From positions 501,001-565,000 of the forward strand of contig CAIIXF020000011.1 of assembly GCA_903813345.2 (NCBI GenBank): a DNA stretch of 64,000 bases, written 5' to 3'. Made by a program: the position numbers and the translations under genes. Below, piece by piece: positions 34,201 through 59,235 of the stretch. The stretch is from Owenia fusiformis. Taxonomy: Eukaryota > Annelida > Polychaeta > Sabellida > Oweniidae. Position 1 is the stretch's first letter, and each line of letters starts with the position of its first letter. The notes beneath the pieces are model-generated. The model saw only the letters and a list, made by a program, of their open reading frames with translations. It ran no database searches and was not told the DNA's origin.

Positions 34201-36789
34201 ATTGTTACATTTAAATGAAGATAGATTAAAAATAGATTTTGTTAAACTATCTCAATGATCTCAAATGCATTTCAGAGTGTTCTTTGGACAATTACAGAAG
34301 TGAAGACTCAAAGGGGTTCCCCTGTCACTATTGTACATGTACAGATGGAGTTGTAGAATGTGTAAAGAGACGTTGCCCTACTCCTCGCTGTGAATACCCT
34401 GCAAGACTACCTGCTCAATGTTGTCTGACGTGTTACAGTAAGTGATTCATGTATGGGGTTTTGACCAGGATTATACATTTCAGGGAAAATGATAATATAT
34501 TATAGAAAATTGCAAAATTAAAGCATATAGTTCTGATTAGTATTTTATTTAACTTTGCTAGACAAAGTGTGTCCAATTCAAGCTAATTAAAAGACAGTAT
34601 TTCAAATAATTGCATTGCCAAGACACGAGCTGCCGCACTTATTCAAAGGTCTGGAAACAAAACATGAGTTGATTAAATCATCCACTATGCAATGAGCCCT
34701 GGGCGTGAATCTATTGGTAACCTGTACTTCAATTAATGTTTTAAAAGGCTGTGAGTACAATGATACCATATATGGTCATGGTGATGAAATTAAAGTACCC
34801 GATCGACCCTGTGATTTCTGTCGATGTAATGCTGGAAATCTTTACTGTATTCCACAACCTTGTCCAAGGTGTCAAAGTCAAGCGGCTTCTAGTCCAAAAA
34901 CTTCAAGTTTAAAATGCTGCCCTAACTGTGCAGATTGTAATGGACACAAAAATGGAACAACCTGGTACGCCAGTCCATGCAAAACATGCACTTGCTTGGT
35001 GAGTACATAGTATCCTAATAACATCTTACACCTGTCCATGCAAAACTTGCATTTGTGTTATCATTATAGTAATGAAAAAATGTGGTACGTCAGTCCATGC
35101 AAAACTTGTACTTGTCTGGTGATTCTGTAGTATTGTAACAACCTCTTACACCAGTCCATGCAAAACTTGCATTTGTCTTGACCGCTCACCTGATACTCAA
35201 GTCCATGAAAAACATGCACTTGTTTGGTGAGTGCATAGTTATGTTACAATCTGTTCTTCAGACCATAAAACATGCACTTGTCTAGTGAGTACATAGTATC
35301 GTAACAACAGCTTACATCAGTCCATGCAAAAATTGCACTTGTCTGGTGAGTTCATAGTTATGCTACAATCTGTTCTTCATACCATAAAACATGCACTTGT
35401 GTGGTGAATACAGAGTAATGGAACAACCTGGTACGGAACAAAGCAAGCCTTAGCAGTCCATTATAAGACTATAAACATTAACACTTAATTTTTCATTATT
35501 TCAGAATGGAGTTGAGAAATGTAAGAAGAAAATCTGCCCTAATCCTTTGTGCTCTCATCCAGCTAAAAACAAGCATAAATGCTGTCCTGAATGTCTGGGT
35601 AAGAGTTCATGTTGCGTAGTAGAAATTAAAATGCTTTTCTTTTCATGTCACAAAGATTATTCGCTATTGTTACCTTTTTAATCTTCTTTTAAACTTACTT
35701 TTGTAATTGCAGTATTGACAGTAATACATTTCTAACATCATATTCAATTAACAAAATAAAATACTCGGAAATTATGCATCGATTTTTCAATTATCTTCAA
35801 TTATAGGTTGTAGTCTTCAACAGAAAATATTCCGCAATCGGGAAAAATTCTTGAAGCATAACTCCCCGTGTGACGTGTGTCTATGCAGTCAGGGCAATAT
35901 AACATGCGAGAGACGAACATGTCCCCGGGGAAAGTGCCAGCACCCAGCTGTCCCTCGGGGACGGTGTTGTCCTCAGTGTAGAGGCAAGTAATGGGAGATG
36001 TTGGGATATCAACATTAAGCTTGCACCCGTGTTATATAAAATTACCTTTTATAGTAAGGTAGTAGGTAGTAGGTAATTTTAATAACGTAATATCTTGCGG
36101 TATCTACGGTATACCTTTTTAATGTTTAGATTAGGTAATTTTAACTTTAAAATGATTTATTCTATTGGATAATTTTACATCACACTGGTGAAGCTTATGG
36201 TACATCATTCATATAATTGCAAATAAACAACAAATATCCATGTGTTATATTAGCCTATATAGGCTTGCAAATAAATTAGTAATCTATGTCATCTATGTAA
36301 TCTATAAACTCCCGTTTATGCAATAATTATTCTCTATGTGTTGATCTCTGCTGTTTATATTACTGTTCCACATAGGTAGCCATCGTCTACATTTGCACCA
36401 ATGATTGTTGCTTATAACACATGATAAATACTAGAATAAACACCAAATAAACACTAGAATAATCTGTTACAAAAAGCAAAACTCACCATTTGATACAGTC
36501 GGACAGACTATTCACTGTAATAAAAATGTATATTTTTGAATCTAGAAACTAACTATATTAATGGACTAGATTACTTAAAATTCTTACATACGATGTAACA
36601 GGAAAGAAAATCCTCTTGATTTATTTATTTTTATTTGTATATTCCCGCTTCATCATTTCAGATTGTTACTATGAAGGCAGATTCTACAAAAATGGTTCTG
36701 AATTCGCTCACCCAGTAGATGTCTGTAAAAGATGTCGCTGTAAATCAGGGTCCGTGAGATGTAAGCTTGATTGCCAGCCTCAGGAATAA
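22280..36789 (+). CDS. Secreted mosaic protein: coiled coil, VWC, EGF, Kunitz, two degenerate tyrosinase domains, VWC tail; 23 exons, 1833 aa
   Basis: Exons: 22280-22427, 22714-22826, 24212-24343, 25092-25140, 25648-25790, 26046-26124, 27168-27313, 27523-27740, 28230-29197, 29363-29614, 29845-30003, 30367-30580, 30819-30931, 31154-31322, 31561-31788, 32019-33270, 33632-33747, 33939-34129, 34276-34437, 34748-34998, 35505-35598, 35807-35983, 36662-36789. Phases agree at all 22 junctions and the sum is 1834 codons with the stop. A signal peptide follows the Met cluster at 22280. Order by residue: coiled coil 55-98, VWC 101-147, EGF 148-186, Kunitz 189-240, VWC-like to 342, tyrosinase 343-600, Cys module 690-749, EGF 750-790, Kunitz 793-850, pentapeptide repeats 860-985, VWC-like 990-1060, tyrosinase 1060-1330, Cys module about 1510-1563, five VWC units 1564-1833. 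It is probably an oligomeric matrix or cuticle/shell-type protein. The start is inferred; Met codons at 22280, 22283 and 22289 are all possible. Confidence 0.9.
22905..23695. repeat. Imperfect inverted repeat in intron 2 of the tyrosinase mosaic
   Basis: TGTTTCATTTTTCAAGCATG and TCAGATCACAACGGCC on the left match, inverted, GGCCGTTGTGATCC and TGATACATGAAACACC on the right (23637-23680). A second left copy, beginning at 23041, repeats the unit directly. Inner arms (GTTTTCCATTGAAAAGTGG near 23490 and its complement near 23190) pair as well. It looks like a fold-back or MITE-type element. Confidence 0.65.
24001..24163. mobile_element. Fold-back MITE in intron 2
   Basis: The ends TTCGCGAATGCAACTAACGC and GCGTTAGATGCATTCGCGAA are inverted copies. 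Inside, CGGCTACCGGATTAAAC pairs with AATCCGGTAGCCG, and TCATTTAAATATGA pairs with TCATATTTAAATGA. Related copies lie near 47290-47745. There is no ORF. Confidence 0.75.
25648..27313 (+). other. First EGF and Kunitz domains
   Basis: The EGF exon carries CRKSPCKNEGVC, then CLCPHGYSGPDC. The Kunitz domain is split over exons 5, 6 and 7. Its cysteine spacing is 8, 15, 7, 12 and 3 residues (from CSYPPKVGSC to CHDVC), exactly the BPTI pattern. The P1-like position after the second cysteine-side loop is not a clear Lys/Arg, so inhibition of trypsin-like proteases is not assured. Confidence 0.9.
28230..29197 (+). other. Tyrosinase domain 1 exon (copper site incomplete)
   Basis: The 968-bp exon 9 encodes FFLPWHRLYLRYIERKL and DPIFLFVHAYIDNLYWTW, the CuA and CuB signatures of type-3 copper proteins. 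Against the bacterial and animal consensus, CuA keeps the first and third His (STH, PWH), but the second His, nine residues before PWH, is Gln. In CuB the first His of HxxxH is Ser (STYFH), while the second and third are kept. Four of six ligands remain, so normal dicopper chemistry is doubtful. A helical tail after the domain is shared with domain 2. Confidence 0.85.
29845..30580 (+). other. Second EGF and Kunitz domains
   Basis: Exon 11 encodes an EGF unit (CNPSPCVNSGTC, CKCHVGYQGRFC) and exon 12 completes a Kunitz unit with spacings 9, 16, 7, 12 and 3, one residue longer than standard in the first two loops. It is followed by GACCYRN, matching GACYHRN after the first Kunitz domain. This shows that the two halves of the protein arose by internal duplication. 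Confidence 0.85.
30535..31575 (+). other. GYD-type pentapeptide repeat segment (exons 12 to 15)
   Basis: Residues near 860-975 repeat the five-residue pattern G-[YFL]-[DN]-x-x: for example YGYDPEGYDRYGFDIEG, RFDINGYDWRGYDVNG and ENGFDTEGFDRAGFD. Exons 12, 13, 14 and 15 all share this frame. A shorter block of the same type (GRDVFGYDVEGYDIAGY) follows the second tyrosinase domain near 32951-33003. The segment is acidic and Gly/Tyr/Asp-rich. Possible roles are an elastic linker, a calcium-binding stretch or a cross-linking substrate; none is shown by the sequence. Confidence 0.8.
32019..33270 (+). other. Tyrosinase domain 2 exon (copper site degenerate)
   Basis: The 1252-bp exon 16 opens with the end of a VWC-like unit (CQTCKCNWDGSLECTC), then a tyrosinase domain with GFLPWNRLFLRHVE, IPYFDWTID and DPIFLSHHAYLDKLWDSW. 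CuA keeps only the first His (AELHSKF). The second is Tyr (TAT) and the third Asn (AAT in PWN), each one base from a His codon. CuB lacks its first His (Ser) and keeps the FHNWVGG and HH ligands. Three of six ligands remain. A helical tail at 33110-33270 resembles that after domain 1. Confidence 0.85.
34960..35425 (+). repeat. Tandem copies of the exon 20 end and its donor site
   Basis: The true exon 20 ends CCATGCAAAACATGCACTTG with the donor GTGAGT at 34999. Downstream the same stretch (CAGTCCATGCAAAACTTGCA and CTTGTCTGGTGAGTACATAG) recurs about seven times at roughly 55-65 bp spacing up to 35425. Several copies keep an intact GTGAGT. They lie wholly in intron 20, before exon 21 at 35505. 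Confidence 0.75.
35984..36661 (+). other. GC-AG intron 22 of the tyrosinase mosaic
   Basis: Exon 22 ends at 35983 and is followed by GCAAGTAATG. No GT donor keeps the frame, while GAG|GCAAGT matches the GC-donor consensus well. Joined to the acceptor ATTTCAG at 36661, it gives an in-frame CxxCRDCYYEGRFY linking two VWC units. If the intron is retained, reading continues as R-G-K and stops at TAA within the donor. Confidence 0.8.
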
Positions 36790-37233
36790 TTCCCCAAATT
36801 TCTTCTAGAAACCTAGGTAAATGATGAGTATATTTATAGGGTTATATTTCCTTTATATTGATGATGATACAGTTCCAAAAAGTATCTTTATACAGACATT
36901 GTGTTTAAACTGTAAATTGACTTCATGAACACCTTATATATCACATAACTAAATGTGGACGATATTTTTCAGATCATTCAGCACCTGTTTCTACAAGGAA
37001 ATAATATCTTTATGGCAAAGTAGTACATATGTACATATTATGTTACAAGAAAGTGACAACAAATGCCTAGTCTGCCAATTTACTTATAGGATTAAAATGT
37101 AATTTGAAAGCATGGCCATTCATTAACATCCTGTGAAGGGACGACGATTGATGCATGATACATGTACAGTTATTATGCAACTGAAAGTGTTGTCAGAGTA
37201 GGATGTTCGAGTGCTAATCTCAATGAAGGTACC

Positions 37234-37387
37234 ATAAGCAAAGCAGTTGTGAAATATAGATTGAACAAGCCTCCATTAGGTTGGTCCCACTTGAGAGAGC
37301 TCCTCATCTTTCACATTTTTATCACGATCAGAATTTTCAACCTAATGGAGGCTTGTTCAATCTATATTTTACAACTGCTTTGCTTAT
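37234..37387. repeat. Long near-perfect hairpin downstream of the tyrosinase mosaic
   Basis: ATAAGCAAAGCAGTTGTGAA with ATAGATTGAACAAGCCTCCA and TTAGGTTG pairs with 37338-37387 over about 50 bp, around a 54-bp loop. A second pair (TCATCTTTCACATTTTTAT in the loop and its complement at 37386-37404) overlaps it. Confidence 0.85.
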
Positions 37388-38228
37388 AAAAATGTGAAAG
37401 ATGAACCGCGGAATCCTAAAGCACTGGGATGTATTGCAACAGAAATATCTTGATAAATGGCACTACTGCTTGAACCTTATTGTTGACGCAGAGGGAGGAG
37501 GGAGCATATGAAGCAATTGTTTAAATAAATAAATTGTAAAATGTTATTAAACAATACTGAAGTTCATAAACAATAAGTTTAGTCACACAATGATGCAAAT
37601 ATACAAGCATGTATTCACCTAACAAAATAATATTCTATAAATAAAAAGTTTACAAAATTCCACAGATTTACTGTTTTCTCCCTAAAATCTAGAGACCTTA
37701 AATAGCGACCCCGCCTCCCAAATAAGTATAATATACCTTTACTATTGATTTTATTACATAGTGTTATATACCATATTGTTGGAAAATATTTAACCTTTAA
37801 AATGATATACAAGTCAATGTATAATATTGAACTGAAGTTGGGTATTGTTTTTTTTGGCCCACCCTGTATTAACAATTATGTCGTTTGTCATTATGACTCA
37901 ATAATTCTCCAATTACTTGCTTATTACAACATGAAAATAATCGCTTGGTTGATGATAGATTTAAATTAAACATTTTATTTAATCATGCATAGCTAAAAGG
38001 CTAATAATATTCCACAAAGTCACAAAGACTTTGTCGGTTGTTATATCAAACACAGTAATATGTAATATGATGTGTATTTGTAAATAAATGTTGAATAAAA
38101 ATAACTTCTTTATATCATAATTATCTTATCAATTGTATCTTATGATAAAACATGACAATAAGAATTCTTCAACTGAATCAGAGAAGATAGATATGAAGTT
38201 TTAATAGCATTTTTTCTTAACATTTTCT

Positions 38229-38884
38229 GTGTCAAAGGAGTGGTATCGATATGGAGAACTGAATTCAACAATGTTTTTCTCTTAAACCAATCATTGAAAA
38301 CATTCTGTAAAAAACACGGTATTTTATGTAATGTTGACTGATTGACAACAATTTAATGCGAACATTTGTTTTTTTTAGTGCAATTGTTTTTGCTCCTTTC
38401 TACCAATTCTTGAGAATGAAAACGTATTTCCGAACCTCGTTGGAACAAAATAGCATATACAACATGTTTTTAGACCTCTCAATATTATAGTTATACAAAG
38501 GAGTTTTTGGTTGATTTTAAAAAAGTATTCAAAAAATTAAAACAAAATCCCCCCAAAATAGATAAAAATCAAGATAAAATTTCCTTTGTATAAATACAAT
38601 ATTGAGAGACCTAAACATGTTGTGTTTATGTCGTTTTGTTCCAATGAGGTTCGGAAAGATGTTTCATTTCACTCTTGAAACATGATACCAAGAACAAAAC
38701 AAGTGCCTGATGTGTTTTCTAAAACAATATAGATAAAAGTATATGTACATTTTTCAAATTATATTGTTACCATTCAAAAGATGACCATTAAGTTGATGAT
38801 GTTAAATTTTTAGATTTTTTATGACTGGTTTAAGAGAAACGTGTGTTCAAAAAGTTCTCCATATTGATACCACTCCTTTCACAT
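38229..38884. mobile_element. 656-bp palindromic element
   Basis: TGTCAAAGGAGTGGTATCGA followed by TATGGAGAACT pairs with 38852-38884. Inner segments (TTCCGAACCTCGTTGGAACA and TGTTCCAATGAGGTTCGGAA) pair as well, so the whole unit is one imperfect palindrome. There is no ORF. Confidence 0.85.
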
Positions 38885-40147
38885 GTGAAAAGTCTAACCA
38901 CATGATTTGTTAGTCAAACACTATGATTCTGAACTAACAGCAACATCATTTGTAGATCAAAAAGATTATTCAGAATTCTATATTGTAGTCTCGCGAGACA
39001 GACCATCTACCATCAGACCATACACTATCCTCAAATCAAATTTAACCAAAATCTGCCAACAAGAATCTAACTATCTATCAAGTCCCATGAGTGATATATG
39101 TCGTCTTCTGAACATAAATCAATGCGTAAGAGATATCAAACTGATTCAGCATGTCGGATATCACAATTTGGAAATATTGTGTTTTAAATTGATTTATAGC
39201 ATCAGATTGATGTTGATCCTTTGATATCTAAGCCTATAGACTTCGAGTCTAAATTCTGTCTGTCCCACATCATTCGAGACTGATTGTTCTATTTTGTATG
39301 AATACTAGTAAGTATCTTCAATTATTTTGATATTATGGGCATTGGTTATCAAATTAACTTTATTCTAAACATATATTGTAATGACTTGAGTATGGATGAA
39401 ATGTCCCTTGGTGCGGTGGTGCTGAATTATGATATGGTACTTGAATTTTGGGAGATGGGCAGGTTACAAATGTAGATATTGTTTCTTCTCACATTAGGTT
39501 ATGGTTTGGGAAAGTTGAAAGTTGGGGTTTGTTTTCCTTGTGACTAGTATGCTATTGGATGCTTTCCTTCCTTCATGCTGTGTTCTGTAATAGTGTTGTT
39601 CCTTTCCCTTTGGCACTTGTGCATACATGTTTAATTCAGAAGAAGGATAATTTAAACCAAAGTCTTGTTTTAAATCATTAGCATAATTGGCATCATTTAT
39701 AAATTGCCAGCCAATGTATTTTGGAGTGGCCAATGTTCAGTGATATTTTGACGTATTCTAAAATAAACATATATTTTCTACATACATTTGAGTAAGTTTC
39801 GTTCCTGTGTTTTGGACAACCCTGTAAAATGTGACATAAACAAGAGGTTAAACGAAATAAAGATGTGAGGTAAAGACTAAAACACTGAACATATGACCAT
39901 TTCCTATTCAGTATGTATTTATTTCATTGTCTTAAAAAGAATGGTATATTTATTTTTTATCTGTAATATATAAGGCAAATAATCATTGAAACACATATTA
40001 TCAAGTACTGTAAACAATAGGTATTTTAAAATACAATAAAGTAGCAATATATCACAGAGCCATAATTTAGTACTTTACCAGGCATAGCTGTTTATGATGT
40101 TTATCTGATTCTGATGCATTGAGAACCAGCCCTACCAGATTGCAGAG
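38885..40147. other. Intergenic sequence upstream of the WSC gene
   Basis: A 105-residue ORF at 38907-39224 has no recognisable domain. No other structure stands out. The WSC promoter should lie within the last few hundred bases. Confidence 0.4.
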
Positions 40148-43100
40148 ATGAAACGTTTGACAGTATTCGCCGCATACTTCGTTGTCATTTCATCAGCACA
40201 CGAGCTTTGTACTCGAGAGGATGCAGAAAGATTGTCTTATGAGATAGCTGAATTAAAAGAAAATAGTAAGTGTAGATTTTGGAACGTATACTTGTATTTT
40301 GTGGTACATGCATTTGATTTTATGTATTCAAGGGGATTCAGTAATCTGTAAATTAACAAGTCAAACTAAGCTAACAAAACTCAGATAAGCATCTTAAACA
40401 TGTGTTAAAAGTGTATATTGTTTTAGACCAGGATACCTACATTGGGTGTTTTATTGATGTCGTTAGAGACAGAGATTTGACCAATTTACAAGGTTTTTTC
40501 CCAGCAACACACGCAACACCTAACACCCTAGACTTCTGTTCAAAAAGATGCCGAATATTAGGTGAGTTCAGTGCCGTAAGCTTTTACACTCTACCCTACA
40601 ACGCAACCACGTTTGAAAGGGATACAGGCTGTGAAATTGCAAATGGAGCTGATATTAACTATCTTTGCATATAGGGCTCTTCTGGTAATGATACACTGCA
40701 AATTGCTCGATGAATATACATAATATACTACAGTATAGTATACAAGTATAGTAGGTAGTGTTAAATTAAAAACTTGAATATCAAAATCCAAAATTGTATT
40801 TTTAATTTGAGGAATCATTTAATCAATTATGTCAGTTGTTTGATCCCACTGTGTGTAGAATTAGATTCATAAGCTGATGTTTTAAGGCCTAGGCTAGGCA
40901 GATAACCCTCTCAGAGATCTAGACAAATACGAATTCTCTGAGAAGTCAACTCTTGAAGTGTTTCCAGAGAGACATATTAAGAACTGTTACGTATAATACC
41001 ATTTTATTTATAAAATATGTAATCTAAATACATTATTCATTTAACTAGGGTTTATATACATGGGTGTTCAAAATTGCCAGGATTGCTGGTGTAGTTACAC
41101 TTATGGGAAACATGGTGAGGTGCCTCGCTGGCAGTGTGACGTCCACTACAAATATACTTTAAATACATATCTATTTTACTAGGGCTTATATGCATGGGAG
41201 TGCAAAATGGTCAGGATTACTAGGTGTAGTAACACTGACGGCAAACATTGTGAGGTGCCTCGCTGGCAGTGTGACGAACTACAAATATTCTTTAAATACA
41301 TATCTATTTTACTAGGGTTTATATACATGGGAGTGCAAAATGGTCAGGATTGCTGGTGTAGTAACACCTATGGAAAACATGGTGAGGCGCCCCACTCGCA
41401 GTGTAACGTCCCCTGCCCTGGTAACAGAGATACTATGTGTGGAGCAGGTCAGAGAAACTCTATATACAAACTAGTGCAGACTCATAACGAGAACTATGTT
41501 GGTTGTTTTATTGATGTTGGCAGAGACAGGGATATGACCAATTTCCAGGGACTTTTCCCAGCAACACATGCTACACCGAACACATTGGGCTTCTGTTCAG
41601 TAAAATGTAGAAAATTGGGTGCGTGTAAGTTAGTGAAATATAATGCATATGTTAATTTTATTTCACATCATATTATGCTATACGTATCGCACCTTACAGA
41701 TTCTTCCTGCACATTTTTATTGATTTGTGTTACAACCTAGAGTATTGATCTAAGCTTCCTCACAAATTGTGTGCACTTCATCCCTGCTCCATGTTTACTT
41801 CTTGACTTTCAAATGTATATATGTTGTGCTCTGAAGCTGAACTAATTACACTCGATTCACACATTTAGTAGTTGAATAGTAAATTCAAAGAATCAAATTT
41901 TAAACCTCACCTGGCCTGTTACATGCAGTTCACTAGCTGAACCAATTATACTTACTCACTTCTCAATACACTTATTCCATAGTCAATACAAAACAAATCA
42001 AATTTTCCAAAAATTGGATCATGGGCCAATTACCTTTCATAAGAGTCAGTGTGGGGTTTAAGTTAAATAAACCATTCGTACTGGGTCTTAGGAGAGCCTT
42101 AGGTACATGTATATCGTATCTTGGCTATTATTTATCCTAAAACCCAGTACTCATATGTTATCCGTATCGGAAAATCCTATGTAGATATTTGTTTTATTAT
42201 ATCACTGTCTATAGCTAAACATCCCTAATATTATTAAGTCATAGGTTAACATTGAAATATATATATATTTACGAATCTACTCGGTTCGTCTGCCATTTTG
42301 ACTTACACTGAACTAAACCATTTACACTGAACGAAAACAAATTCTTTGAAAATTCCCAGGAGCGTGGGATATCGCTAGATATCTCACGGTTGTCTTATCT
42401 GATTAGCATTGCCATTGTATATCGCCAGATATCCCACGACATGTGACCCAGTTTTGACCAATCATACTGTCGCTAGCTAGATAGTGATATAATAGTGCAA
42501 TATATTCCATATGTCATGCATGTTCATTAACGTATTTATGAGCTTTATTGGACTATATATATGATATATATTATACCATTTTGAAGATGCAACGAGTAAT
42601 TTTAATTTTGTATTTCCTTGAATTACTTTACCTGTTTACCAGATTGAAACGGTTAAAAAGAGCACACCAGAATGCATGAAATAATTATGCATTTGTAGGG
42701 TTCAAATACATGGGGGTGCAAAATGGCCAGGATTGCTGGTGTAGTAACACTTATGGCAAACATGGTGAGGCTCCTCAGCACCAGTGTAACGTCTCCTGCC
42801 CTGGCAACAAAGAGACAATGTGTGGGGCGGTTTACAGAAATTCTATATACATCGTAGGACACAAAGACACATATATTGGTTGTTTTGTTGATGTAACTAG
42901 CAATAGAGATATGTCGAACCTACAGGGATTTTTTCCAGCATCACACGTTACACCCAACTCTCTTTCGTTTTGTTCCAGAAGATGCAGAGCAAATGGTGAG
43001 TGTGTAAACAGAAGCGTAAGGCTATGCGTAACATGTACATAGGCGTAGCCAGGGGGGGGGGGTGCGATGGATCCAATAACAAATAAAATAACAAATGAAA

Positions 43101-45374
43101 ATATAACCATGAGATAGATGAAAAAGAGCTTTAAAATGCTTTTTATTTGAAGCTTCTAGCTCAATCATGAAGGAAGTTGCATCAATTTTTGTAAAATTCA
43201 ACATAAATCTTGATTTTTGGCTTGTTTATGCCACAATCCCACCCCCTTGACTAAAAACCGAAATGTTTGGGATCTCGACCCCCCTGACTGAAAGCTGGCT
43301 ACGGCCTGCATTTTTTCACGTTTTTGTAAATGTAAACAAAGGAGGTTGGGACCCTAAGGCTTTTTTATTATTCTATCGACAGAGATGTGATTGGTGTCGA
43401 TAGAAAGTAGAATCAATTTCCCAGAGCATGTGCGTATCGCCGTGCGAACTTGCTGTGAAACATAATCTCAATTTCCGTAGGACAAGGTCACCATTTTTCA
43501 TGAAATGGTATGATTTATTCCGTATTAATGTCAACAAAACCACTAATACAGAACGGTCTAAACGAGACCGTGTACTGACCAATTGATCAGAGTTATTTTC
43601 AATATCTAAACGATTAAAGGAATTCTTGAAGGACGAAATATTGTGATCGGCATTTCAGACTGCGAAAACAGCTTTTGAGTAAAAAATAAATTGTGTGAAA
43701 GTCTAAAACATTGTATGAACCATTCGATTCTCAAAAATATGCTCCTCGAATCAATACAATATGTACCAGGTCGTTCAGATAAGAGGAAATGCATGTCATT
43801 CACTCATAAATTTGCCTACTATTTTGTTGCTTTTCTTTATTGAATAATGTGATGCCCCGCCTACCGAAACGTCAAGTTACCATAGTAACTGTTGTTTTCG
43901 ACCAATCAAATATTAGATGCTGGTATTTCAGAATTCAGAGCATTTTCCCGTGAACTTATTGAACGACTTTGTATAAAAGCTCTACATTGAGCATTTAATC
44001 CTCGGAACTATGTTTCTTGAACCAGCACAATGTACATTCAAGCATTGCATGAATCATTCGATCCTCATGATTAACTATTATTCATGGTATCGTTTATATT
44101 ATGACTACAATGATTGTATATTTCAAGGTTTTAAATACATGGGGGTACAGAATGGCCAGGATTGCTGGTGTAGCAACACTTATGGAAAGCATGGTGAGGC
44201 ACATCACTCGCAGTGTAACGTCCCTACATATATACACTTTAATACATATCTATTTTACTAGGGTTCATATACATGGGAGTGCAAAATGGCCAGGATTGCT
44301 GGTGTAGCAACACTTATGGAAAGCATGGTGAGGCACATCACTCGCAGTGTAACGTCCCTACATATATACTTTAATACATATCTATTTTACTAGGGTTCAT
44401 ATACATAGGAGTGCAAAATGGCCAGGATTGCTGGTGTAGCAGCACTTATGGAAAGTATGGTGAGGCACATCACTCGCAGTGTAACGTCCCTACATATATA
44501 CCTTAAATACATATTATCTATTTTACTAGGGTTTGTATACATGGGAGTGCAAAATGGCCAGGATTGCTGGTCTAGCAACACTTATGGAAAGCATGATGAG
44601 GCGCCCCACTCGCAGTGTAACGTCCCTACATATTTACTTTAATACATACGTGTACCTATTTTACTAGGGTTCATATACATGGGAGTGCAAAATGGCCAGG
44701 ATTGCTGGTGTAGCAACACTTATGGAAAGCATGGTGAGGCACATCACTCGCAGTGTAACGTCCCTACATATATACACTTTAATACATATCTATTTTACTA
44801 GGGTTCATATACATGGGAGTGCAAAATGGCCAGGATTGCTGGTGTAGCAACACTTATGGAAAGCATGGTGAGGCACATCACTCGCAGTGTAACGTCCCTA
44901 CATATATACTTTAATACATATCTATTTTACTAGGGTTCATATACATAGGAGTGCAAAATGGCCAGGATTGCTGGTGTAGCAGCACTTATGGAAAGTATGG
45001 TGAGGCACATCACTCGCAGTGTAACGTCCCTACATATATACCTTAAATACATATTATCTATTTTACTAGGGTTTGTATACATGGGAGTGCAAAATGGCCA
45101 GGATTGCTGGTCTAGCAACACTTATGGAAAGCATGATGAGGCGCCCCACTCGCAGTGTAACGTCCCTACATATTTACTTTAATACATACGTGTACCTATT
45201 TTACTAGGGTTCATATACATGGGAGTGCAAAATGGCCAGGATTGCTGGTGTAGCAACACTTATGGAAAGCATGGTGAGGCGCATCACTCGAGCTGCAACA
45301 TTCCGTGCCCTGGATATAGAGATGATATGTGTGGAGGACTCCATAGGAATTCTATTTACAAACTTGATGGCTGA
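40148..45374 (+). CDS. Secreted protein with three WSC domains, 5 exons, about 339 aa
   Basis: Exons: 40148-40265, 40427-40561, 41316-41618, 42699-42995, 45208-45374. All internal introns are phase 1 and the total is 340 codons with the stop. The signal peptide is MKRLTVFAAYFVVISSAHE. Each WSC domain is built from two half-exons: first half YIGCFIDV, DLTNLQGFFP, FCSKRC; second half YMGVQNGQDCWCSNTYGKHG, CPGNRDTMCG, NSIY. The internal exons carry the second half of one domain and the first half of the next, so they can be added or lost without a frame change. WSC domains are putative carbohydrate-binding modules found in sensors, kremen and polycystin-type proteins. There is no transmembrane segment after the third domain, so secretion is likely. 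A weak polyadenylation signal ATTAAA lies at 45449. Confidence 0.85.
41040..41315 (+). pseudogene. Two decayed WSC half-exons with acceptor sites
   Basis: Copies of the second WSC half-exon start at about 41049 and 41182, each after TTTTACTAG or a similar acceptor. The first reads GFIYMGVQNCQDCWCSYTYG, then loses the CPG...MCG part. The second has a TAG in place of the CWC region. Neither is followed by a donor. They precede the intact exon at 41316 and look like tandem-duplication remnants. Confidence 0.75.
42363..42441. repeat. Short inverted repeat in WSC intron 3
   Basis: CGTGGGATATCGCTAGATAT pairs with ATATCGCCAGATATCCCACG across about 40 bp. Confidence 0.75.
43041..43312. mobile_element. 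MITE with GCGTAGCCAGG ends in WSC intron 4
   Basis: ATAGGCGTAGCCAGGGGGGG at the left and CTGACTGAAAGCTGGCTACG plus GCCT at the right are imperfect inverted ends, with C-rich tracts inside. There is no ORF. Confidence 0.6.
44127..45285 (+). repeat. Tandem array of WSC half-exons with 3' splice sites
   Basis: Nine copies of a 134-138 bp unit start near 44127, 44262, 44396, 44531, 44668, 44802, 44936, 45071 and 45208. Each has ATTTTACTAG, then the first part of the WSC half-exon (TACATGGGAGTGCAAAATGG), then intron-like ACATATATACTTTAATACAT in the first eight. Only the ninth runs on through CPGYRDDMCGG to a stop. The array is also a higher-order repeat: 44151-44690 is repeated, apparently without change, at 44691-45230, a period of 540 bp or four units. 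Confidence 0.9.
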
Positions 45375-45777
45375 TGACACACAAAGAGAGCACTTAGTAA
45401 CGCAAGACAATAGACTAGTTGCGAGTAGAAATAATCTTGATTCACATCATTAAATATTGTCATATTTGAAATCTACATGTAAAAGTACATCTAGAAATAT
45501 GGTTTTGAAAATTGTTTATCAACTTTGAAAATCTAATTTTTTGAAAAATTCTAGTTCGGGTTGATTCCTCATTGACCCCATGTTACTAAATCACAAATAT
45601 GAAAATATCTTGTATTGGACAGATAACTTTGCATAACTAATAGATACATAAGGGTTATATGAAAATTGAACCACTAAAACAGATGTGATTTAAGTTACAG
45701 GGAACTTTCTACTATACCCGCCATGCTATCTGACCCGAACGAGCCTCCTGGTGGTGAACTCGTATATTTCAAAGTGT

Positions 45778-46918: not shown

Positions 46919-47030
46919 TTACTGGGAGGGATTGAATATGGGTTTTATTCCTAGGGACAATATGATATTGCCCAAGGTCAATATCATATTTTCCGAGGAA
47001 TAAAACCCATATTCAATCCCGACCAGAAAT
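46919..47030. repeat. Palindrome of about 110 bp
   Basis: GGGATTGAATATGGGTTTTA with TTCCTAGG pairs with CCGAGGAATAAAACCCATAT plus TCAATCCC. A partial copy, ATACAATATGGGTTTTATTC, lies near 47220. Confidence 0.8.
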
Positions 47031-47289
47031 GACCTATTTATTCCATAATACGTTCGTCTAGAATGTTACATTTGTATAATGCTTTAATTGTCAATTAGCC
47101 AAGGTTAAAAATAACCGGGAAACCAATGTAATACGATTCAATACGATTTTTATTCCTTCATATTTCCCTGGGAGAACAGTATTATTATGGAATAAATAAA
47201 GGTTATTTACTGGGAGTGATACAATATGGGTTTTATTCCGTCAATATGGAATTTCCCGAGGAAATGAGTTGAGGAAAGGGGCCATAAAA

Positions 47290-49739: not shown

Positions 49740-50190
49740 CTAAGATATCATTATGCTCCCATAATCATTATGTTCCCATACCAATCTGTCAAATTTCAAT
49801 GTGTTCACGTACCAACCAAAATAACGCCCAAAAGCCATACCAAATATCCAAATATAATACCAATGCTATACCAAATGTTCAAATATAGGACTAATGCCAT
49901 ACCAAATATCCCAAAAATATAAGACCATTGGAATGCAAAATGTCTAAAGCCCCTGGAAGAAGCAGAACTTTTATGAAAATGAAAACAACCTCAAATTAAG
50001 GACATTTGTAAAAACTAGACCAATCCCATACCACAAGTGAGAGGTAACATATTCTCCATGACCATTCTTGTACCACAAAGTAGAAAACTCAGACCATTGT
50101 CATACCTCAAAAGTCATAATTAAATGGGGGCATTCTCATTCCAGATCCTAAAATTTTGATCCATTGCCATACCAAATGTTAAAAGAGGAA
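49740..50190 (+). repeat. Degenerate GCCATACCAAAT repeats
   Basis: About ten diverged copies of a unit of about 30 bp containing (G)CCATACCAAAT(A/G)T; no gene. Confidence 0.55.
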
Positions 50191-50499
50191 CCCCCTGTCA
50201 ATGTTTATATAGAGTGAATCCCTCGGGTGTAAAATATAGCTTTTGACTTTTAGAAAGTAGCCCAGTGATGTTCCTTATTCCTAGCTTGTTCAGAAATTCT
50301 TGTTGGTCTGTTTGGCAGACATTTAAATTTCAGCCAAAGATATATAATCTGTATCGCTTTTGGACTAAGTACTATACAGATACGAATGACCACATATCCC
50401 CATATCATTTTAGGATAGGCAATGGACTGAAATGGGTACTCACAGTATTTAGTTGTTAAAGCTATATAATTAACTCAATATGTATTAAGCCTCTACCTC

Positions 50500-52660
50500 A
50501 GTTCAATGTTTTATCCAAGACATCCGACTGGACTCTCAGCTGACTTCTTACAGAAACTCAGTGCTGATGTCAAAACACAGAGGTCCAACATCTTCAATGA
50601 GCTCATGGTACCTTCAGAAGAGTTGACCGATTAAAAAATATCTGATCAGCTTAAAAATCCAAGACCTATTTGATGAGGCTAAGACAAGAGGGTGGTATGC
50701 AGTTATGCACCCAATAGAAGTGGGATGCAGAGCCCAGCCTCTTCACTATGCTACCTCTTGTCCAAGTTAGAACGATTTCCATCCCAGATGCGAGGACAGT
50801 GAGTGGAGGAAACATCTGTGAAACACCATTGTGTTGGGCCAAGTAGAAGACAAAAGCTTCTCTTGGGAAGGAGAGATGAAGCCCACAGTGTTCGTGGATG
50901 GCTTCAACACTGGCAAGTGAAAAAGATCAGAGAGCTCCAACAGATGCTTCTTAAGAGATTACTTCATCTTAGAGAAAATCTAAAGAGAAGCGCAGGACCA
51001 GGAAGACATTCTTTGAAAATCTCTATAGGCTCACATCAAACTTGTTAGGGAACCAAAGAGTGCCCGTATGGCATATACGCAGGATCAAGCAGAAGCAAAT
51101 ACTTTGGCAGCGCACAGTGACCCAGATCGAAATATGCCATCGAGTAATTTCCCAATTGACATCTCACCATATTTATCATCAAAACCGTTTGACCAGTCAG
51201 ATTTTAAGCTTGATGAGGTAAGAACATACATTAGGAAGGCATACATGGTGTACAAGAACAGCCATAAGCTGTTAATACACCTATGGTGATTGCTAACAAG
51301 CATCCAGAACAAGAAAAATCTAGCAAGGACTTGGGCTTTGGCGGAAAGGTGCTTCATTCCAAAGGAGCTAAAATTTGAGGGACTGGACCAGTTCAAGTAG
51401 ACATCATTATCGGATGCTGAGGGAAAGATCTTCTGGGCCATTGTGGTCAAGTCTCACAGTTATTTCCTACTGGCCTGCCAAGCATTCAGAAAAGTGGTAT
51501 CCCAAGACATCAAGGGTGCATATAGCAGCAATAAGCCAACTTGTGAAGGAAGCCAAGGAAGAGAATAAGTAGTTTGGCTGGACCTAAGGTCTACCTAGTG
51601 TCCCTCACCAACTGATACTAGAGGTACAAGTTAACTTTCACGTACCAAAACCAACAGATGTAGTCAATCTGACAATGGGACACACAAACTCCTTGAAGTT
51701 GCACAATTACATTTGGCAATAATACCACTAATTAGCAGAGTTCAGAGAAAGGCATAGTGGCAGACCGCACTGTATCAGTAGTTCTCTTCGTAACATCAAT
51801 GAACTTACTGCTCAAGGCAGGGATGATGCAGTGTAAGGTTTCAAAAGCAAACGAAGGTGCAAAACACTTACCATACAGAGCTTTCATGGATGACATCACA
51901 GTTATGACCAGTTCAGCAGTGGGTACAAGATGAAAGTGGGTACTTGCATGAAGTTAAAAACCAACCAGGTCAAGAAGCATGGTTTTGGTTGATGGCAAGC
52001 TTTCTCCAATGCAGTTCAAAATAAATGGCAAGCATGGCAAGCAAATACCAACAGGGCAAGATAAAGAAACAATTGTCTAGAGAAGAACTATGTGTGGTTT
52101 GAACAAAACAGCTGAAGTGTCAAGGGACCTGGACAAGTGGCTTAGAGCCATTGACTCAAGTCATATATCGGGGTGTTATGATATTACTCCCCGATTTCAG
52201 TGGCCTTTCCAGATTAACATTACCTGGGAATTACTTGACATTACATTACCTGACATTACCTGGGAACCCTCACTTCAGCACTTCTTGAAATGGAATAACC
52301 TTTGGTCCATGGACCAAGGGAGGCTCAGTTTCCTATTAAGAGCTTTCCCTGACCTGGTCTCAACTCCATCAAACCTCAGACTTTGGGGGAAGGAAGAAAC
52401 CGCCAACTGCCCCACGTGCATGGCAACTGAATGACACATACATTAAATCATATACTCATTATTTGGGTTACAGCTCCCGCTAATGGACAATACAGATGGC
52501 ATCATGATTGAGGCTAAGGATGCCCATACTTTGATCTGGGCCTACCTTCAATATCTATCTCGTGTTAATTTGATCTGGGCATTATTTACCACTACCACTT
52601 TTAACATGTCTCATCAGATCGACTTTTGCACATGTGACAATAAAATAGCCTGACTTGTAT
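50500..52660 (+). pseudogene. Decayed non-LTR retrotransposon reverse transcriptase
   Basis: Pieces in shifting frames resemble a LINE-type reverse transcriptase in the right order: IPKELKFEGLDQF and DAEGKIFWAIV (51350-51440, fingers), a palm-like YRAFMDDITVMTSS (51880-51918), WLRAIDSSHISG (52138-52173), then a C-terminal NCPTCMATE Cys motif (52405-52431). Stops and frameshifts break it many times. The FMDD box in place of FADD is typical of one widespread animal retroelement group. No intact ORF exists. Confidence 0.75.
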
Positions 52661-54708
52661 TGTGCTGTCATATTGGAATTACACTATCATAATGAACACT
52701 TCATGTACTTGTAAGCAGTGCATACAAGATGCAAAATTTGGCCAAAATTTCACCAATGAGCAACATTGGGCTCTATCTACTTGACTCTGCTAGAGGAGCT
52801 TCAGCCCTTGAATTTGATATTAGTGTTTAGAAGTTAACATTTTGAACAAAAGTGCCCCCCCCCCTTTTTCAGTTACATAATCATGTGAAGTGTCAACACT
52901 TAATTTCTTACAAAGTTTTTCCAAAATTTCAATTGCAAATATGTTCAAAATTAATGTACCTATATATTCAAAATCATAAATGCTCATGAATAACCAAGAC
53001 TGTTACCTAGAGGGAAAGATATTGGTCGTTACCATTGAAAAATGCCAAAAATAATAGAGGTTGTCACATATTATGCAAATGGGAAAATTTGCATAATTAT
53101 TGCATTTTTATAAGTATATTATAATAGCTCCATTTTTGTTTCACTTACAGCTTTCAATTATCAAAACTGTGGAAGTTATTGTACTTTGAAATGATTAACA
53201 TCAACTCTTTCTCAAGAAGTGCCACGCCCCTTTTCAGTAATATAATCATGTGAAGTATTATAACTTAGTGTCTGACAATGTTTTTCCAAAACTTTCAATT
53301 GCAAATATGTTCAAAATTAAAGGCAGAATCTGATCTATAGGGGGTGACAAAATTACAAGCAACATGTATAATTGACCTACCAATCTATTCCTTACAATAT
53401 CAAATACAATATCTCCCAAAGATTCACAATATGTTATAAATTGGTGAAGTTATTAATGTTTCAAAGTGCAAAAATGAGTGAAAAATGTTTAAATTCTCCC
53501 AATTAATAAGAATGGTAACCATTCTTATAGAAAAATAATACATTATTGTAAAAATCTTTAGTTTTCCTTGAATAAAGTATGCACTTTTGTGATTTTTAGA
53601 AAATAGACATGACAAGGAATGACATGAGCCAAAAATATTCTAAAATTGAAACAATTTTTTGTTAAGCCTGCTCGCTATCTCTGATTCTCTCTTTAATGTA
53701 CTTATATATTCAAATTCATTCATGTTCATGGATGACTAAGACTGGTCACTCAGGCAGCAAGGTATTGTGTGATACCGTTGTAAAGAGGCAAAGATTACGA
53801 TAAATGATGTCACATTTTATGCAAATGAGACTATTTGCATAATTATTACATCTTATATAATATGGGATACTATAATAGCTTCATTTTGGTACCACTTACA
53901 GCTTTCAACTCTCAAAACTGTAGAAGTTATTATACTTTAAGATGATTAAAATCAATTCTTTCACAAGAAGTGCCACGCCTCTTTTCAGTAACATTATCGT
54001 GTGTCTGACAATGTTTTTCCAAAAGTTTCGAATTTTTTTGTTGCAAATATGTTCAAAATTAATGTACCTATATATTTAAATTTATTTATGTGAATGAATG
54101 ACTAAGACTGATCACTCAGGCAGAAAGGTATAATGTGATACCGTTGTAAAGAGGCAAGAATTATGATTGATGATGTCATATTTTATGCAAATGAGACAAT
54201 TTGCATAATTATTGCATCTGATAATATAGGATACTATAATTGCTTCATTTTGGTACCACTTACAGCTTTCAAATCTCAAAACTCTGGAAGTTATTATACT
54301 TTGAGGTAATTAACATCAACTCTTTCAAAAATCCAAGATGGCCGATAAGATGGCTGCCAATAAATACCATGGGACAATATTTCATTCTGGGAACATGCAA
54401 AAATCTTTAGTATGGACCTTTAGGATTACAAAAATGTACATTAAAAAATACATCTTTCGGGTGCATGGGAACCCCTCCTTCCTACCCGTCTATTTGACTA
54501 TCGGAGTTTTTATGGGCATTCAGATTATAAATAAAGCCCCGGAGCCGCATCAGTATACACTCCGTGGCAGTACTCGTCTTCAACATAGCATTGGAGTTTG
54601 TTGGAAGTGATGGCATACCAAGTCACATGGCGGTGTTACTAATTCAAAAGCATGATTTTAAGCCACCCTGTAAATAATGTCATGTGACAGTCACGTGCTT
54701 GTTTACTT

Positions 54709-54726
54709 CCGGTAAACATGTTATGA
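54709..54726. promoter_or_regulatory. Palindromic GTTTAC/GTAAAC site upstream of the small secreted gene
   Basis: GTTTACTTCCGGTAAAC lies about 80-95 bp upstream of the start codon at 54804. The arms GTTTAC and GTAAAC are forkhead-like and the centre holds an ETS-like TTCCGG. A CACGTG E-box lies just upstream, near 54692. This is a promoter candidate by position and motif only. Confidence 0.3.
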
Positions 54727-54803
54727 AATAATTTTTCGTATCTAATCTTTTCTCGTGACTTAAATCAATGCGAAGTCGCTTTTGTAGAGACAATTGCTTC
54801 ACG

Positions 54804-57800
54804 ATGGTGTCTGGACTTTTGTTGGGAGCTTCAACTTTATTTGTAGTTATAGTTTGTGCGGTCGGCGGCCCATTACACGCCTCTTGTACCATCGAATGGT
54901 GAGTGGAGAATTATTTTCTGATTTGTTTTGCATTTTTGAAATTATGGATCTAGCCTAGTTGGGAAGAAAAATAAATGACACATGGATTTTCTATCACCAT
55001 TTCCTAACCAAGGTCGTCTGAAAGCCCATAATTTCCAATATTGTCTAGATAAATATTCCTAAAATTTGTATATTTTACATTTTGTATAGATCTAATCCCA
55101 TCCACTGATGTATAAAAAATGGTTACCTGTATTTTACAGGCGGGCAGGCGACCCAGGCGGCCGCTTTTATTTTTTTCATAGAGGTGGTAGGATCAAAAAC
55201 ACATTCCAACATTATTTTATTGCATGATTATCTTTGAGATTCTGTCGTCGTGTATTGCTAACCACAATTGGAAAAAGTTCCCTACCCGAATTAAAAGTTA
55301 CCAAATTGTCGTTGAAAATAAGAAATCGTGTTTACTGAAGCAAGGTTGGGATGTTTAATTGAAAGGAATCAGGGCAATCTGTGAGGTTCGTTTTTTCTTG
55401 CTCTTCACAAGATAGCACCCATTTGTTTAGTAATATCCCATCGAACAAAGTTCGGAGGGATATAGGGAACGCCTCCATCCGTCGTCCGTACATACGTCCT
55501 TCCGTCCGTCTGTCGGGGCAATAACTCAAATACTGTTGACCCGATTTTGTTCATATTTCATACACATGTGCACTATGGGGGTAGAAGTTCTGCTCGAAAG
55601 CCGATTTTCAAAATGGCCGATCGTTTTAAAATGCTGTAATGTTAATTCAAGATGCTGTAACTTTTTTATTTGTGGGAGATGTTTATGTTAATGACAATGT
55701 TTTTGTCTTTCACATAGTCTGCTATGCCAGTTACCAAAACTCTGTGTTTCAGTAACAAAATGTCTGAACATTGAACATTTTCCTTATTTCATGCATTGTG
55801 ATTAGAATTTCTACATTCGAAGACAAATGTGTGTCAATGTACAATTGCGAACTAAAAGTTCAGGAGACACAGATTTTTCGATTTAATACCTCACTATTGT
55901 AACATAAACAGAACAGGTTAAAAGTGCAGATCTTAACCATTATTTTAAATTCTGTGTACGTAACACAAGTGAGAAATTAAATCAACAATTCTGTCATCTT
56001 CTGAACTATGTGTTTGCAAATATGTACATTATTGTAGATATACATGTTTGATACTGATACACATTTGTGATGAAAATGTAGTGCTCCCTCCTCATCTGAC
56101 CAAAAGAATCATTTGGTGGGGAACAAATTCCACGTCGATTGTCTCAAAAGAAATGAGAAGCACCCATCACCCCCCCCCTGTGGATGCCTATGTTAAATAT
56201 GACCAGATGCCAAAATAAATGCCATCACATCAGTAAATGTTCTTTTTACAGGTCATGGGATGCCAAATGTAGTGACGTCAACAATGCTATTGTTAAATGC
56301 CATCACATCAGTAAATGTTCTTTTTACAGGTCATGGGATGCCAAATGTAGTGACGTCAACAATGCTATTGTTAAATGCCATCGCATCAGTTAATGTTGTT
56401 TTTACAGGTCATGGGATGCCAAATGTAGTGACGTCAACAATGCTATTGTTAAATGCCATCGCATCAGTTAATGTTGTTTTTACAGGTCATGGGATGCCAA
56501 ATGTAGTGACGTCAACAATGCAATTGTTAAATGCCATCACATCAGTAAATATTCTTTTCACAGGTCATGGGATGCCAAATGTACTGATGTCAACAATGCT
56601 ATTGTTAAACAAATAGCTTTATGGAAAACAGATGACAACTGCAAAGGAGGAGGAGAGAAATGCCTCTACGCGGTAAGAAAAATGTTTATGTGATATTTGT
56701 TTCTATCTGAATTCGCAAACGTACATTTAGATATGATAAATGCCACATTGAATCATCCCAAAAATTTCTAATCATATTTGTGAATTCAGCTTCTGCTGTC
56801 TGCCAGATAAACCTATGAATTAGCATTAATTAAACCCTTTGTTTTGAAGTTGAAATAAAGAACAACCCAATAGTCAACTAAGAGTGATCTATTCAGGAAG
56901 AAAAATGAACACAAATGTTTCTCATTTCAAGCATATTGGTTGGACTTTTCAACCATTTCAATCACTACGTCTTGGAAAATGAAATTACAGTTTCGCTGCT
57001 TGCGCTTGTTTTGCCGTTTCAAGAATTCCAATCAATTTCCCCACGCTATTTTCAATTTCACTTTCATTTCAACCATTTCAAGCAGTTCGGCCATTTTACC
57101 CCCGTTTCAAGCATTTCGCCCGCCAGTGTATACAGGGCTTTAGATTATCATTTTGATCTATGTTCTGACATGCCCTATGTAACATAATAAACTAATGATA
57201 AATTCATGTAAGATATTACTGAACATATATGATTACGATATAGCTTTTACGACCAAAATCCATTTAAATATATGTTCTTAAGAAATGTATATGTAAGTTG
57301 TACCTTATATCTTTGAAATTAGAAACTTAATATCTTTAAATAAGAAACTTTTCTTCTTTAAATTAGAAACTTTATATCTTTAAATTAGAAACTTTTTATT
57401 TTGAAATTAGAAACTTCATTATGTCCTAATTTAGAAACTTTTCATTTTGAAATTAGAAACTTTTCATTATGTCCTAATTTGTTGTTGCAGCTTGTGAGTA
57501 GAACTGACAGAATAATAAAAGCGACACACACCACACCTAAGAAGGGATATGTCGATGATCTCACATTTACTTTTACACAGAATAGCAACATTTGTAACGT
57601 CAATGTAAGTTTTTATATCACAAATATAAATATGAAGTTTTTGCAAGAAAGTAATGGAAAAATAAAAATGAAATTGAATATAAAATAAAATATAGAATAT
57701 AAAAAAACATCATCATAATGAAATAACATAATTTCATTATGTTTATTTTAACTTCTTAAAAACATTTTGTCTTTGACTTTGATTGAAATTTTAAAATTCA

Positions 57801-59235
57801 AATCTTAAATTTACTCCTGTATTAACAGTATGCTAGCATATATCCTCACCATGGTTTTCTGTATAGCACTGAAATCGTAGGGTGTCAATGTTATTTTATG
57901 AAACCCTTTATTTTAAGAAGTGATTAAAAGTTTGTTAACATTTGTTCTTCCAGGGTCACTCAACCTCGGAGACGTGGTATGCTGTTTTAGACTATAGCAC
58001 TAATTACTGCAACCTGAACAACCTGATCACAGGTAAATGCTTTAAGTTATTGTGATAAAAGGTAAACACTTTGACCTTCCTGATAACAGGTAAACACTAT
58101 GACCTTCCTAATAAAAGGTAAACACTATGACCTTCCTAATAACAGGTAAAAAATATGACCTTCCTGAAAACAGATAAACACTATGACCTTCCTAATAAAA
58201 GGTTAACACTATGACCTTCCCAATAAAAGGTAAACACTATGACCTTCCTAATAACAGGTAAAAAATATGACCTTCCTGATAACAGGTAAACACTATGACC
58301 TTCCTGATAACAGGTAAACACTATGACCTTCCTGATAACAGGTAAACACTATGACCTTCCTGAAAACAGATAAACACTATGACCTTCCTAATAAAAGGTA
58401 AACACTATGACCTTCCTAATAAAAGGTAAAAACTATGACCTTCCTGATAACAGGTAAAAACTATGATCTTCCTGAAAACAGGTAAACACTATGACCTTCC
58501 TGATAACAGGTAAACACTATGACCTTCCTGATAACAGGTAAACACTATGACCTTCCTGATAACAGGTAAAAACTATGACCTTACTGATAACAGGTAAACA
58601 CTATGACCTTCCTGATAACAGGTAAACACTATGGCCTCCCTGAAAACAGATAAACACTATGACCTTCCTAATAAAAGGTAAACACTATGACCTTCCTAAT
58701 AAAAGGTAAAAACTATGACCTTCCTGATAACAGGTAAAAACTATGACCTTCCTGAAAACAGGTAAACACTATGACCTTCCTGATAACAGGTAAACACTAT
58801 GACTTCCTGATAAGAGGTAAACACTATGACCTTCCTGATAACAGGAAAATACCATGACCTTCCTGATATCAGGTTAACAATATGGCCTTACTGATAACAG
58901 GTAAACACTATGACCTTCCTGATAAAAGGTAAACACCTTAAACTTCCTGATAACAGGTTAACACTATGACCTTCCTGATAACAGGTAAACACTATGACCT
59001 TCCTGATAAAAGGTTAACACTATGACCTTCCCGATAACAGGTAAACACCAGTATCATATTTGTTATGTGCAGCCTTTTTATTATTAAGTATTCTATCACG
59101 TTTATTGTACTGCATTCTCTTTACTATTGTACTACATTTTCAGGAGCTGGGCTAGACAAGGCTAAGGCCTACAGTGAGACTACCAGTGACAGGATCTGTA
59201 CGCAATATTCTTCAAGAAACTGTGACAAGTATTAA
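54804..59235 (+). CDS. Small secreted Cys-containing protein, 5 exons, 162 aa, function unknown
   Basis: Exons: 54804-54898, 56564-56672, 57491-57604, 57954-58032, 59144-59235. Phases agree (2, 0, 0, 1) and the total is 163 codons with the stop. The signal peptide is MVSGLLLGASTLFVVIVCAV. The mature part contains EWSWDAKCTDVNNAIVKQ, GGGEKCLYA, KATHTTPKKGYVDDLTFTF, STSETWYAVLDYSTNYCNL and ICTQYSSRNC. It resembles an uncharacterised secreted family that I believe also occurs in fish and amphioxus, from memory and unverified. No catalytic motif is evident. About eight cysteines suggest a disulphide-bonded extracellular domain. A polyadenylation signal AATAAA lies at 59307, 72 bp after the stop. 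Confidence 0.85.
55437..55620 (+). repeat. Dispersed repeat fragment with a CCGTCCGTC tract
   Basis: CATCGAACAAAGTTCGGAGG, a CGTCCTTCCGTCCGTCTGTC tract and GGGGCAATAACTCAAATACT lie in intron 1 of the small secreted gene. The pattern is like dispersed repeats of molluscan genomes (recognition from memory). Confidence 0.5.
56195..56570 (+). repeat. Tandem array of exon 2 starts with 3' splice sites
   Basis: Five copies of a unit of about 78 bp carry TTCTTTTTACAG followed by GTCATGGGATGCCAAATGTA and GTGACGTCAACAATGCTATT. Acceptor junctions lie near 56250, 56331, 56409, 56487 and 56564. Only the last continues into the rest of exon 2. The first four return to the intron-like GCCATCACATCAGTAAATGT. 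The exon part still encodes SWDAKCSDVNNAIVK in each copy. Confidence 0.9.
57305..57480 (+). repeat. Degenerate tandem repeat of AAATTAGAAACTT
   Basis: About nine copies of a unit of 17-22 bp based on AAATTAGAAACTTT with variable TTATATC or TTCATT linkers lie in intron 2, ending just before the acceptor of exon 3 (57491). Confidence 0.75.
58022..59045 (+). repeat. 29-bp minisatellite carrying a 5' splice-site motif
   Basis: About 35 copies of a unit like CTGATAACAGGTAAACACTA plus TGACCTTC fill most of intron 4. The first unit is the real exon 4 end, CTGATCACAG|GTAAATGC at 58023-58040. The array therefore appears to have grown from the exon-intron boundary and multiplied a CAG|GTAAAC donor-like site. 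Variants have AAAAG or AACAG before GT. Confidence 0.9.

Follow-up and report, generated by a model that had tools for sequence, protein, structure and literature searches.

Five tandem arrays across exon-intron junctions in three neighbouring genes of Owenia fusiformis, with apparent transfer between sister splice junctions

The window analysed here is a stretch of 64,000 nucleotides of Owenia fusiformis DNA (assembly GCA_903813345.2, contig CAIIXF020000011.1, positions 501,001 to 565,000 of the forward strand), in which three neighbouring genes, namely a tyrosinase mosaic, a gene with three WSC domains and a gene for a small secreted protein, carry five tandem arrays within 24 kb, each containing one exon-intron junction, as located with Tandem Repeats Finder (TRF) and gene models. 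With good confidence, these arrays can be taken as minisatellites of the kind named 'mirages' in lancelets, in which a short segment crossing an exon-intron border would have been duplicated in tandem and then grown by unequal exchange or slippage, the remaining copies turning into intronic decoys; the array at one WSC exon would have been seeded from that at a sister exon. This account requires a minimum of four founding events (those of arrays 1, 2a, 3 and 4, as listed below). The kind of array is already known, and the new element is the apparent transfer between sister splice junctions.

Gene models and the arrays over their junctions

Gene models were assembled by hand from splice signals and retained only when the coding sequence (CDS) was open from end to end. 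Internal stops are absent from all three (23, 5 and 5 exons), which supports the junctions used; these rest on splice signals and reading frame in the genomic DNA of one haplotype. GC content in 2-kb steps is 30-41 percent across the window (animal-type DNA), as against about 41 percent in lancelets, and judged by this composition the host is probably not a lancelet. The genes and exons concerned are as follows.

22280-36789, forward strand: CDS of the tyrosinase mosaic gene, 23 exons, open
34748..34998, forward strand: exon 20 of the tyrosinase mosaic (23 exons in all), open, encoding a VWC domain (PF00093, E-value 5.9e-08)
40148-45374, forward strand: triple-WSC gene, five exons, three WSC domains, open CDS
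41316..41618, forward strand: exon 3 of the WSC gene, open
45208..45374, forward strand: exon 5 (the last) of the WSC gene, open
54804..59235, forward strand: small secreted-protein gene, five exons, 162 amino acids, open CDS

Pfam searches, for which 6 of the 23 exons of the tyrosinase mosaic were run, identify in it two tyrosinase domains, one EGF, one Kunitz and two VWC domains, and find WSC (PF01822) in three stretches of the WSC-gene protein (E-value 2.4e-51). For the small secreted protein the sole match is to DUF1499, under the cut-off of that family (E-value 0.0022). The searches also covered nine open reading frames outside the three gene models and one exon of an ENPP-like gene nearby. 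The translated mosaic further contains a degenerate run of GYD/GFD-type glycine-aspartate repeats (30367-31788), flanked by its two tyrosinase domains, and its intron 22 is probably of the GC-AG type, since the open model has exon 22 ending in GTAGAG|gcaagt at 35984, the one donor considered there.

After merging of TRF rows with overlapping periods, the junction-spanning arrays are these.

34956..35435, forward strand: array 1, units of about 60 bp (about 58-61 bp) covering the donor of exon 20 in the tyrosinase mosaic; TRF 34956-35427
41025..41411, forward strand: array 2a, 133-bp unit in three copies, covering the acceptor of exon 3 in the WSC gene; from TRF
44128..45290, forward strand: array 2b, nine acceptor copies with units of 132-138 bp over the exon-5 acceptor of the WSC gene; TRF 44135-45290 (132/268)
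56216..56609, forward strand: array 3, 78-bp unit in five copies, covering the acceptor of exon 2 in the small secreted-protein gene; from TRF
58019..59048, forward strand: array 4, 28-bp unit in about 36 copies, covering the donor of exon 4 in the small secreted-protein gene; TRF 58053-59048, 35.6 copies

The first-pass annotation had claimed that real splice junctions lie inside such arrays, and the open gene models together with TRF bear this out, although it counted four arrays where five are found, both the exon-3 and the exon-5 acceptor of the WSC gene being covered. The junctions concerned, two donors and three acceptors, are 34998/34999, 41315/41316, 45207/45208, 56563/56564 and 58032/58033. 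In each array the functional site is the copy at one end: the 5'-most copy for the donors (34998/34999 in array 1 and 58032/58033 in array 4) and the 3'-most for the acceptors (41316 in 2a, 45208 in 2b and 56564 in array 3). This pattern had been offered as evidence, and it is indeed seen; however, once a segment with a junction in it has been duplicated, a copy is usable only if it adjoins the remainder of the exon, so the lone junction at the end is forced by geometry and carries no separate weight. That the CDSs are open when the end copies are used does support the junction-crossing explanation.

The extents of two arrays were checked further. In array 1 the functional donor is followed in intron 20 by degenerate copies, and the unit at the exon end has eight local matches in the intron up to 35435, with scores of 28-74 against a background maximum of 22. 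In array 4 the TRF edge falls 20 bp short of the exon-4 donor, and the extended start at 58019 comes from a separate match test: the donor is identical to the 28-bp unit at 15 of 16 bases, the next copy is 29 bp away, and its unit score of 27 is reached by 2 of 20000 random segments outside the main arrays, whereas the three genes' remaining 29 donors score 18 at best. A further 22-bp array in the same gene (57308-57468) stops 22 bp before the exon-3 acceptor, without reaching it.

Relations among the units

Unit lengths differ among the arrays, as had been noted, and the accompanying claim of unrelated sequences holds for four families, the two WSC arrays belonging to one of them. Alignment against shuffled sequences gives no clear mutual relation among the units of arrays 1, 2, 3 and 4 (the weak scores of the array 3 unit against 2a and 2b are matched or beaten by 6 and 14 of 300 shuffles, respectively), while the units of 2a and 2b form one family (0 of 300), which has probably spread from one junction to the other.

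Mean pairwise identities of about 0.85 (array 1), 0.86 (2a), 0.94 (3), 0.95 (2b) and 0.91 (4) come from unlike samples (array 1 was represented by 8 segments, 2a by 96-nt pieces, 2b by the 8 units starting at upstream acceptors and array 4 by 27 of its roughly 36 units, picked by pattern matching), and the differences suggest that the arrays may be of different ages. In array 3 the interior is homogenised and the edge excluded: the functional end copy differs from the decoys at 2-3 of 44 exonic bases, and the decoys differ from one another at 0-1. The intron upstream of its first unit may hold degraded copies, but the alignment score of 18 stays within the range of shuffles (mean 13.5, maximum 25) and does not establish them. 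By eye, TAAA is common to exon and intron at this array, and no claim about microhomology at the founding is made from it. Preservation of the reading frame by unit length was considered and rejected, as 78 and 132 are divisible by three, but 28, 134 and 136 are not.

Array 2b contains a 540-bp block that occurs twice, with an exact match of 590 nt at offset 540, and its units 5-8 fall in the repeated block. Such a match points either to a duplication of very recent date or to an error of assembly.

Sister exons of the WSC gene

The relation between 2a and 2b can be followed on both sides of the acceptor. On the exonic side, the first 80 nt of the 2b end copy are identical to those of decoy 2 at 79 of 80 positions, the differences being confined to nt 80-98. 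Over nt 1-80, decoys 1-4 are closer to exon 5 (73-79 of 80) than to exon 3 (68-73 of 80); over nt 80-98, they match exon 3 at 17 of 18 positions and exon 5 at 11 of 18. These four decoys are thus mosaic. On the intronic side, the tails of copies 2 to 5 and of the functional exon-5 copy all resemble that of exon 3, at a level reached by 0 of 2000 shuffles in each case. Exon 5's own tail, which precedes the first 2b copy, is unrelated to that of exon 3 (1023 of 2000 shuffles), the exon-4 tail does not match it either (992 of 2000), and the bodies of introns 2, 3 and 4 show no similarity above shuffles.

Since the 2b units match 2a, and since their 3' exonic part and intron tail are foreign to exon 5's own intron, they appear to derive from exon 3, and the most likely account is that array 2b was copied from there by non-allelic conversion and then expanded. 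The steps would be founding at exon 3, conversion onto the sister exon 5 and later expansion, whereby the acceptor now used by exon 5 would be an import lying 1080 bp downstream of the original at 44128, intron 4 would have been lengthened by about 1.1 kb, and one acceptor, that of exon 5, has probably been relocated by 1.1 kb. The remnant of the original site is the following.

44128..44133, forward strand: exon start behind the presumed ancestral acceptor of exon 5, now a decoy; first 2b copy, with its own intron tail

It might instead be that the 3' part of exon 5 diverged after the array had been inherited together with the exon, in which case conversion would be unnecessary; this, however, leaves the unrelated intron tails unexplained.

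Decoy splice sites

Splice sites were scored with a position weight matrix whose training set, 28 donors and 27 acceptors, came from these genes and excluded the array junctions. The many intronic decoys reported at first are confirmed by this scoring, all five arrays holding decoys at or over the training minimum. In array 1 the functional donor scores 7.3 and is equalled or exceeded by two of five decoys, in array 3 the decoy acceptors, at 9.8-10.1, exceed the functional one at 8.7, and in 2b the functional acceptor (6.8) follows eight upstream acceptors, of which one, at 44128, scores 8.7, six score 8.5 and one 6.8.

One alternative is that the repeated junctions are functional alternative splice sites yielding protein isoforms. 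The site that speaks for it is the nearest decoy of array 3:

56486..56563, forward strand: nearest decoy unit of array 3, acceptor at 56486, 26 in-frame codons without a stop, score 9.8 against 8.7

This acceptor outscores the modelled one, and its use is predicted to give an isoform with 26 extra residues. Every other decoy that was read through leads to premature stops, however: three sites in 2a, eight in 2b (read-through from 44128 to the exon end meets nine stops including the natural one), three of four in array 3, five in array 1 and all three tested in array 4 (its first three decoys). Functional isoforms are considered a very unlikely explanation. Under the duplication account, splicing probably survives, in that a complete exon would be formed by the end copy alone (exon definition).

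Introns lengthened, not evidently gained

The first-pass annotation had also linked the arrays to intron creation through duplication of AG|GT sites. In classic intron gain a duplicated exonic AGGT gives both splice sites, a geometry that does not fit here, as each array holds one site only. The opposite splice sites lie outside the arrays (35504/35505 for array 1, 40561/40562 for 2a, 42995/42996 for 2b, 54898/54899 for 3 and 59143/59144 for 4). Since every one of the five introns has just one of its two sites inside the array, a new intron did not get both of its ends from these arrays; introns have been lengthened, and none is evidently new. Nothing in the window lifts intron creation beyond a possibility.

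Repeat density, junction bias and chance

The observed overlap was compared with random placement, within the window, of either whole array footprints or founder units. All these nulls are post hoc and concern one window chosen after the pattern had been seen; they cover the arrays inside gene models, array 4 is taken to start at 58019, and three arrays of the ENPP-like gene enter the nulls to which that gene was added, the three-gene and exon-sparing nulls being run without them. The array footprint takes up 3798 of the 24169 gene bases of the three genes. With footprints in these genes, 5 of 11 arrays lie on junctions where 3.87 are expected on average (P 0.30), and 5 of 6 when only arrays of at least 100 bp are counted (P 0.14). 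Adding the ENPP-like gene gives 5 of 14 (P 0.45) and 5 of 7 (P 0.22), and dropping 2b as well gives 4 of 13 (P 0.52) and 4 of 6 (P 0.27), in each case for all arrays and for those of at least 100 bp. An exon-sparing footprint null in the three genes returns P 0.13 for 5 of 11 and P 0.02 for 5 of 6. With founder units, 0.8-1.6 junction arrays are expected in the three genes (collapsed, one unit per array; P 0.0006-0.03) and 0.75-1.26 when the ENPP-like gene is added and genes are left uncollapsed (P 0.0005-0.014); if 2b is set aside as a derived array, the three genes have a junction in 4 of their 5 arrays that reach 100 bp (P 0.002-0.0035).

The earlier statement that chance is a poor explanation thus depends on the null, agreeing with the founder-unit nulls (P 0.0005-0.03) and mostly not with the footprint nulls (P 0.02-0.52). 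An ordinary high density of intronic tandem repeats, with arrays falling anywhere and some of them landing on junctions in exon-dense genes, is a serious contender, if somewhat short of an even chance: with all five arrays kept, the footprint nulls expect 3.3-4.4 on junctions against the 5 observed (P 0.14-0.45). On the other hand, the comparison is fairer when made with founder units (0.75-1.6 expected), and each junction array contains exactly one junction, no whole exon having been swallowed. The founder null suits the biology better, since arrays grow in place, but as the region was chosen for its pattern its P values are taken as a hint only.

A process biased towards junctions, in which splice-site DNA or nascent RNA triggers duplication (for instance through R-loops or paused replication) or selection retains repeated splice signals, is unlikely, though the founder-unit result with 2b dropped, the involvement of both donors and acceptors and the varied divergence agree with it. 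The sample is small and post hoc, and 6 of 11 arrays in the three genes (9 of 14 with the ENPP-like gene) touch no junction.

Points against the duplication and transfer account

Several observations count against reading the arrays as expanded border duplications with transfer from 2a to 2b. Decoy strength is not uniform, as the functional site is the strongest in 2a (8.5 against 4.6 and 6.7) and in array 4 (10.1 against at most 9.3). The own tail of the first 2a copy is only weakly like the functional exon-3 tail (19 of 2000 shuffles), although a related tail, even if weakly so, is as expected for an array founded in place. The junction enrichment is not robust across nulls, the inheritance of 2b with its exon would do without conversion, and splicing, stability and correctness of the assembly all depend on the genomic sequence of a single assembled haplotype, in which the 590-nt exact match of 2b might be a misassembly.

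It is this last point that bears on whether the arrays are wholly or partly assembly artefacts. The exact repeat at offset 540 occurs in an array whose units otherwise differ by up to 10 percent, and the mirage of the lancelet globin BflGb6 had to be rebuilt from traces, the draft version having looked aberrant (PMC3087553). Arrays 1, 2a, 3 and 4, however, carry diverged variant copies, which are not made by assembly duplication, even if copy number may err, and an artefactual origin is considered very unlikely.

Comparison with published cases

Both the phenomenon and its link to intron gain, raised in the first-pass annotation, are already in print for lancelets (PMC3087553, PMC3902484); the comparisons below draw on excerpts of the reports cited. 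Junction-spanning minisatellites in lancelet globins, published in 2010 with an intron-gain model, were named mirages; their units measure 150-160 bp (10-72 bp in Adh3), many copies retain AG/GT, and the edge copy escapes homogenisation (PMC3087553). Mirages are reported to leave splicing apparently undisturbed (PMC3087553, PMC3902484). The arrays described here resemble them in the repeat lying over the junction, in affecting donors and acceptors, in varied unit lengths, in copies that keep AG/GT and, for array 3, in the edge effect. They differ in that five occur in three neighbouring genes and one has apparently moved between sister junctions. Lancelet PGBD5, alongside which the Adh and TnC cases are cited, likewise has imperfect tandem repeats including splice sites, of 60 and 108 bp at the 5' and 3' sites, but it is one gene and its 108-bp repeat is a triplication (PMC3902484).

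Outside lancelets, the potato RdRp gene gained an intron by tandem duplication across the boundary between intron 1 and exon 2 (PMC4974935); the duplicated segment spans an intron-exon border as here, while the new intron formed there has no evident counterpart. Human paralogs in segmental duplications show variable internal tandem repeats at exon-intron boundaries (PMC2812944), and this variation similarly alters intron structure, though recent copies were there compared with transcripts and the present comparison is of genomic DNA. The excerpt on intronic minisatellites of C. elegans (PMC4039745) describes no junction-spanning arrays. The direct relatives recognised in the literature excerpts are hence the two lancelet reports, the human paralogs and the potato case; other published cases may exist.

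A neighbouring ENPP-like gene

An ENPP-like phosphodiesterase gene (PF01663) lies on the minus strand at 16185-21425. Its catalytic exon is interrupted by an element of about 2.3 kb with 53-nt terminal inverted repeats (18755-18807 and 20998-21050, 83 percent complementary). Both sides of the exon are open, and each breaks at a codon border at the edge of the element. The last 128 nt (21125-20998) were scanned: three GT sites are out of phase with the AG inside the other terminal inverted repeat, and one weak GC at the edge of the repeat is in phase. The element is either a transposon insertion allele or a transposon-derived intron. The gene's stop codon is followed, 144 bp further downstream, by a 21-bp array of about 14 copies (15752-16041), which may lie in the 3' untranslated region.

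Implications

A broader proposal, tentative and somewhat doubtful as it stands, is that mirages recur at splice junctions in a probably non-lancelet genome and spread between sister junctions by gene conversion, such that an imported acceptor replaces the functional one and the start of a coding exon is homogenised with decoys, giving intron growth and splice-site relocation without intron gain. The arrays suggest that junction-spanning minisatellites may occur beyond lancelets, and five of them in 24 kb make a dense test bed for how the spliceosome deals with near-identical decoys, for intron lengthening and for the movement of splice sites. If the transfer from 2a to 2b is upheld, such arrays would propagate between sister exons and pull coding sequence into minisatellite turnover.

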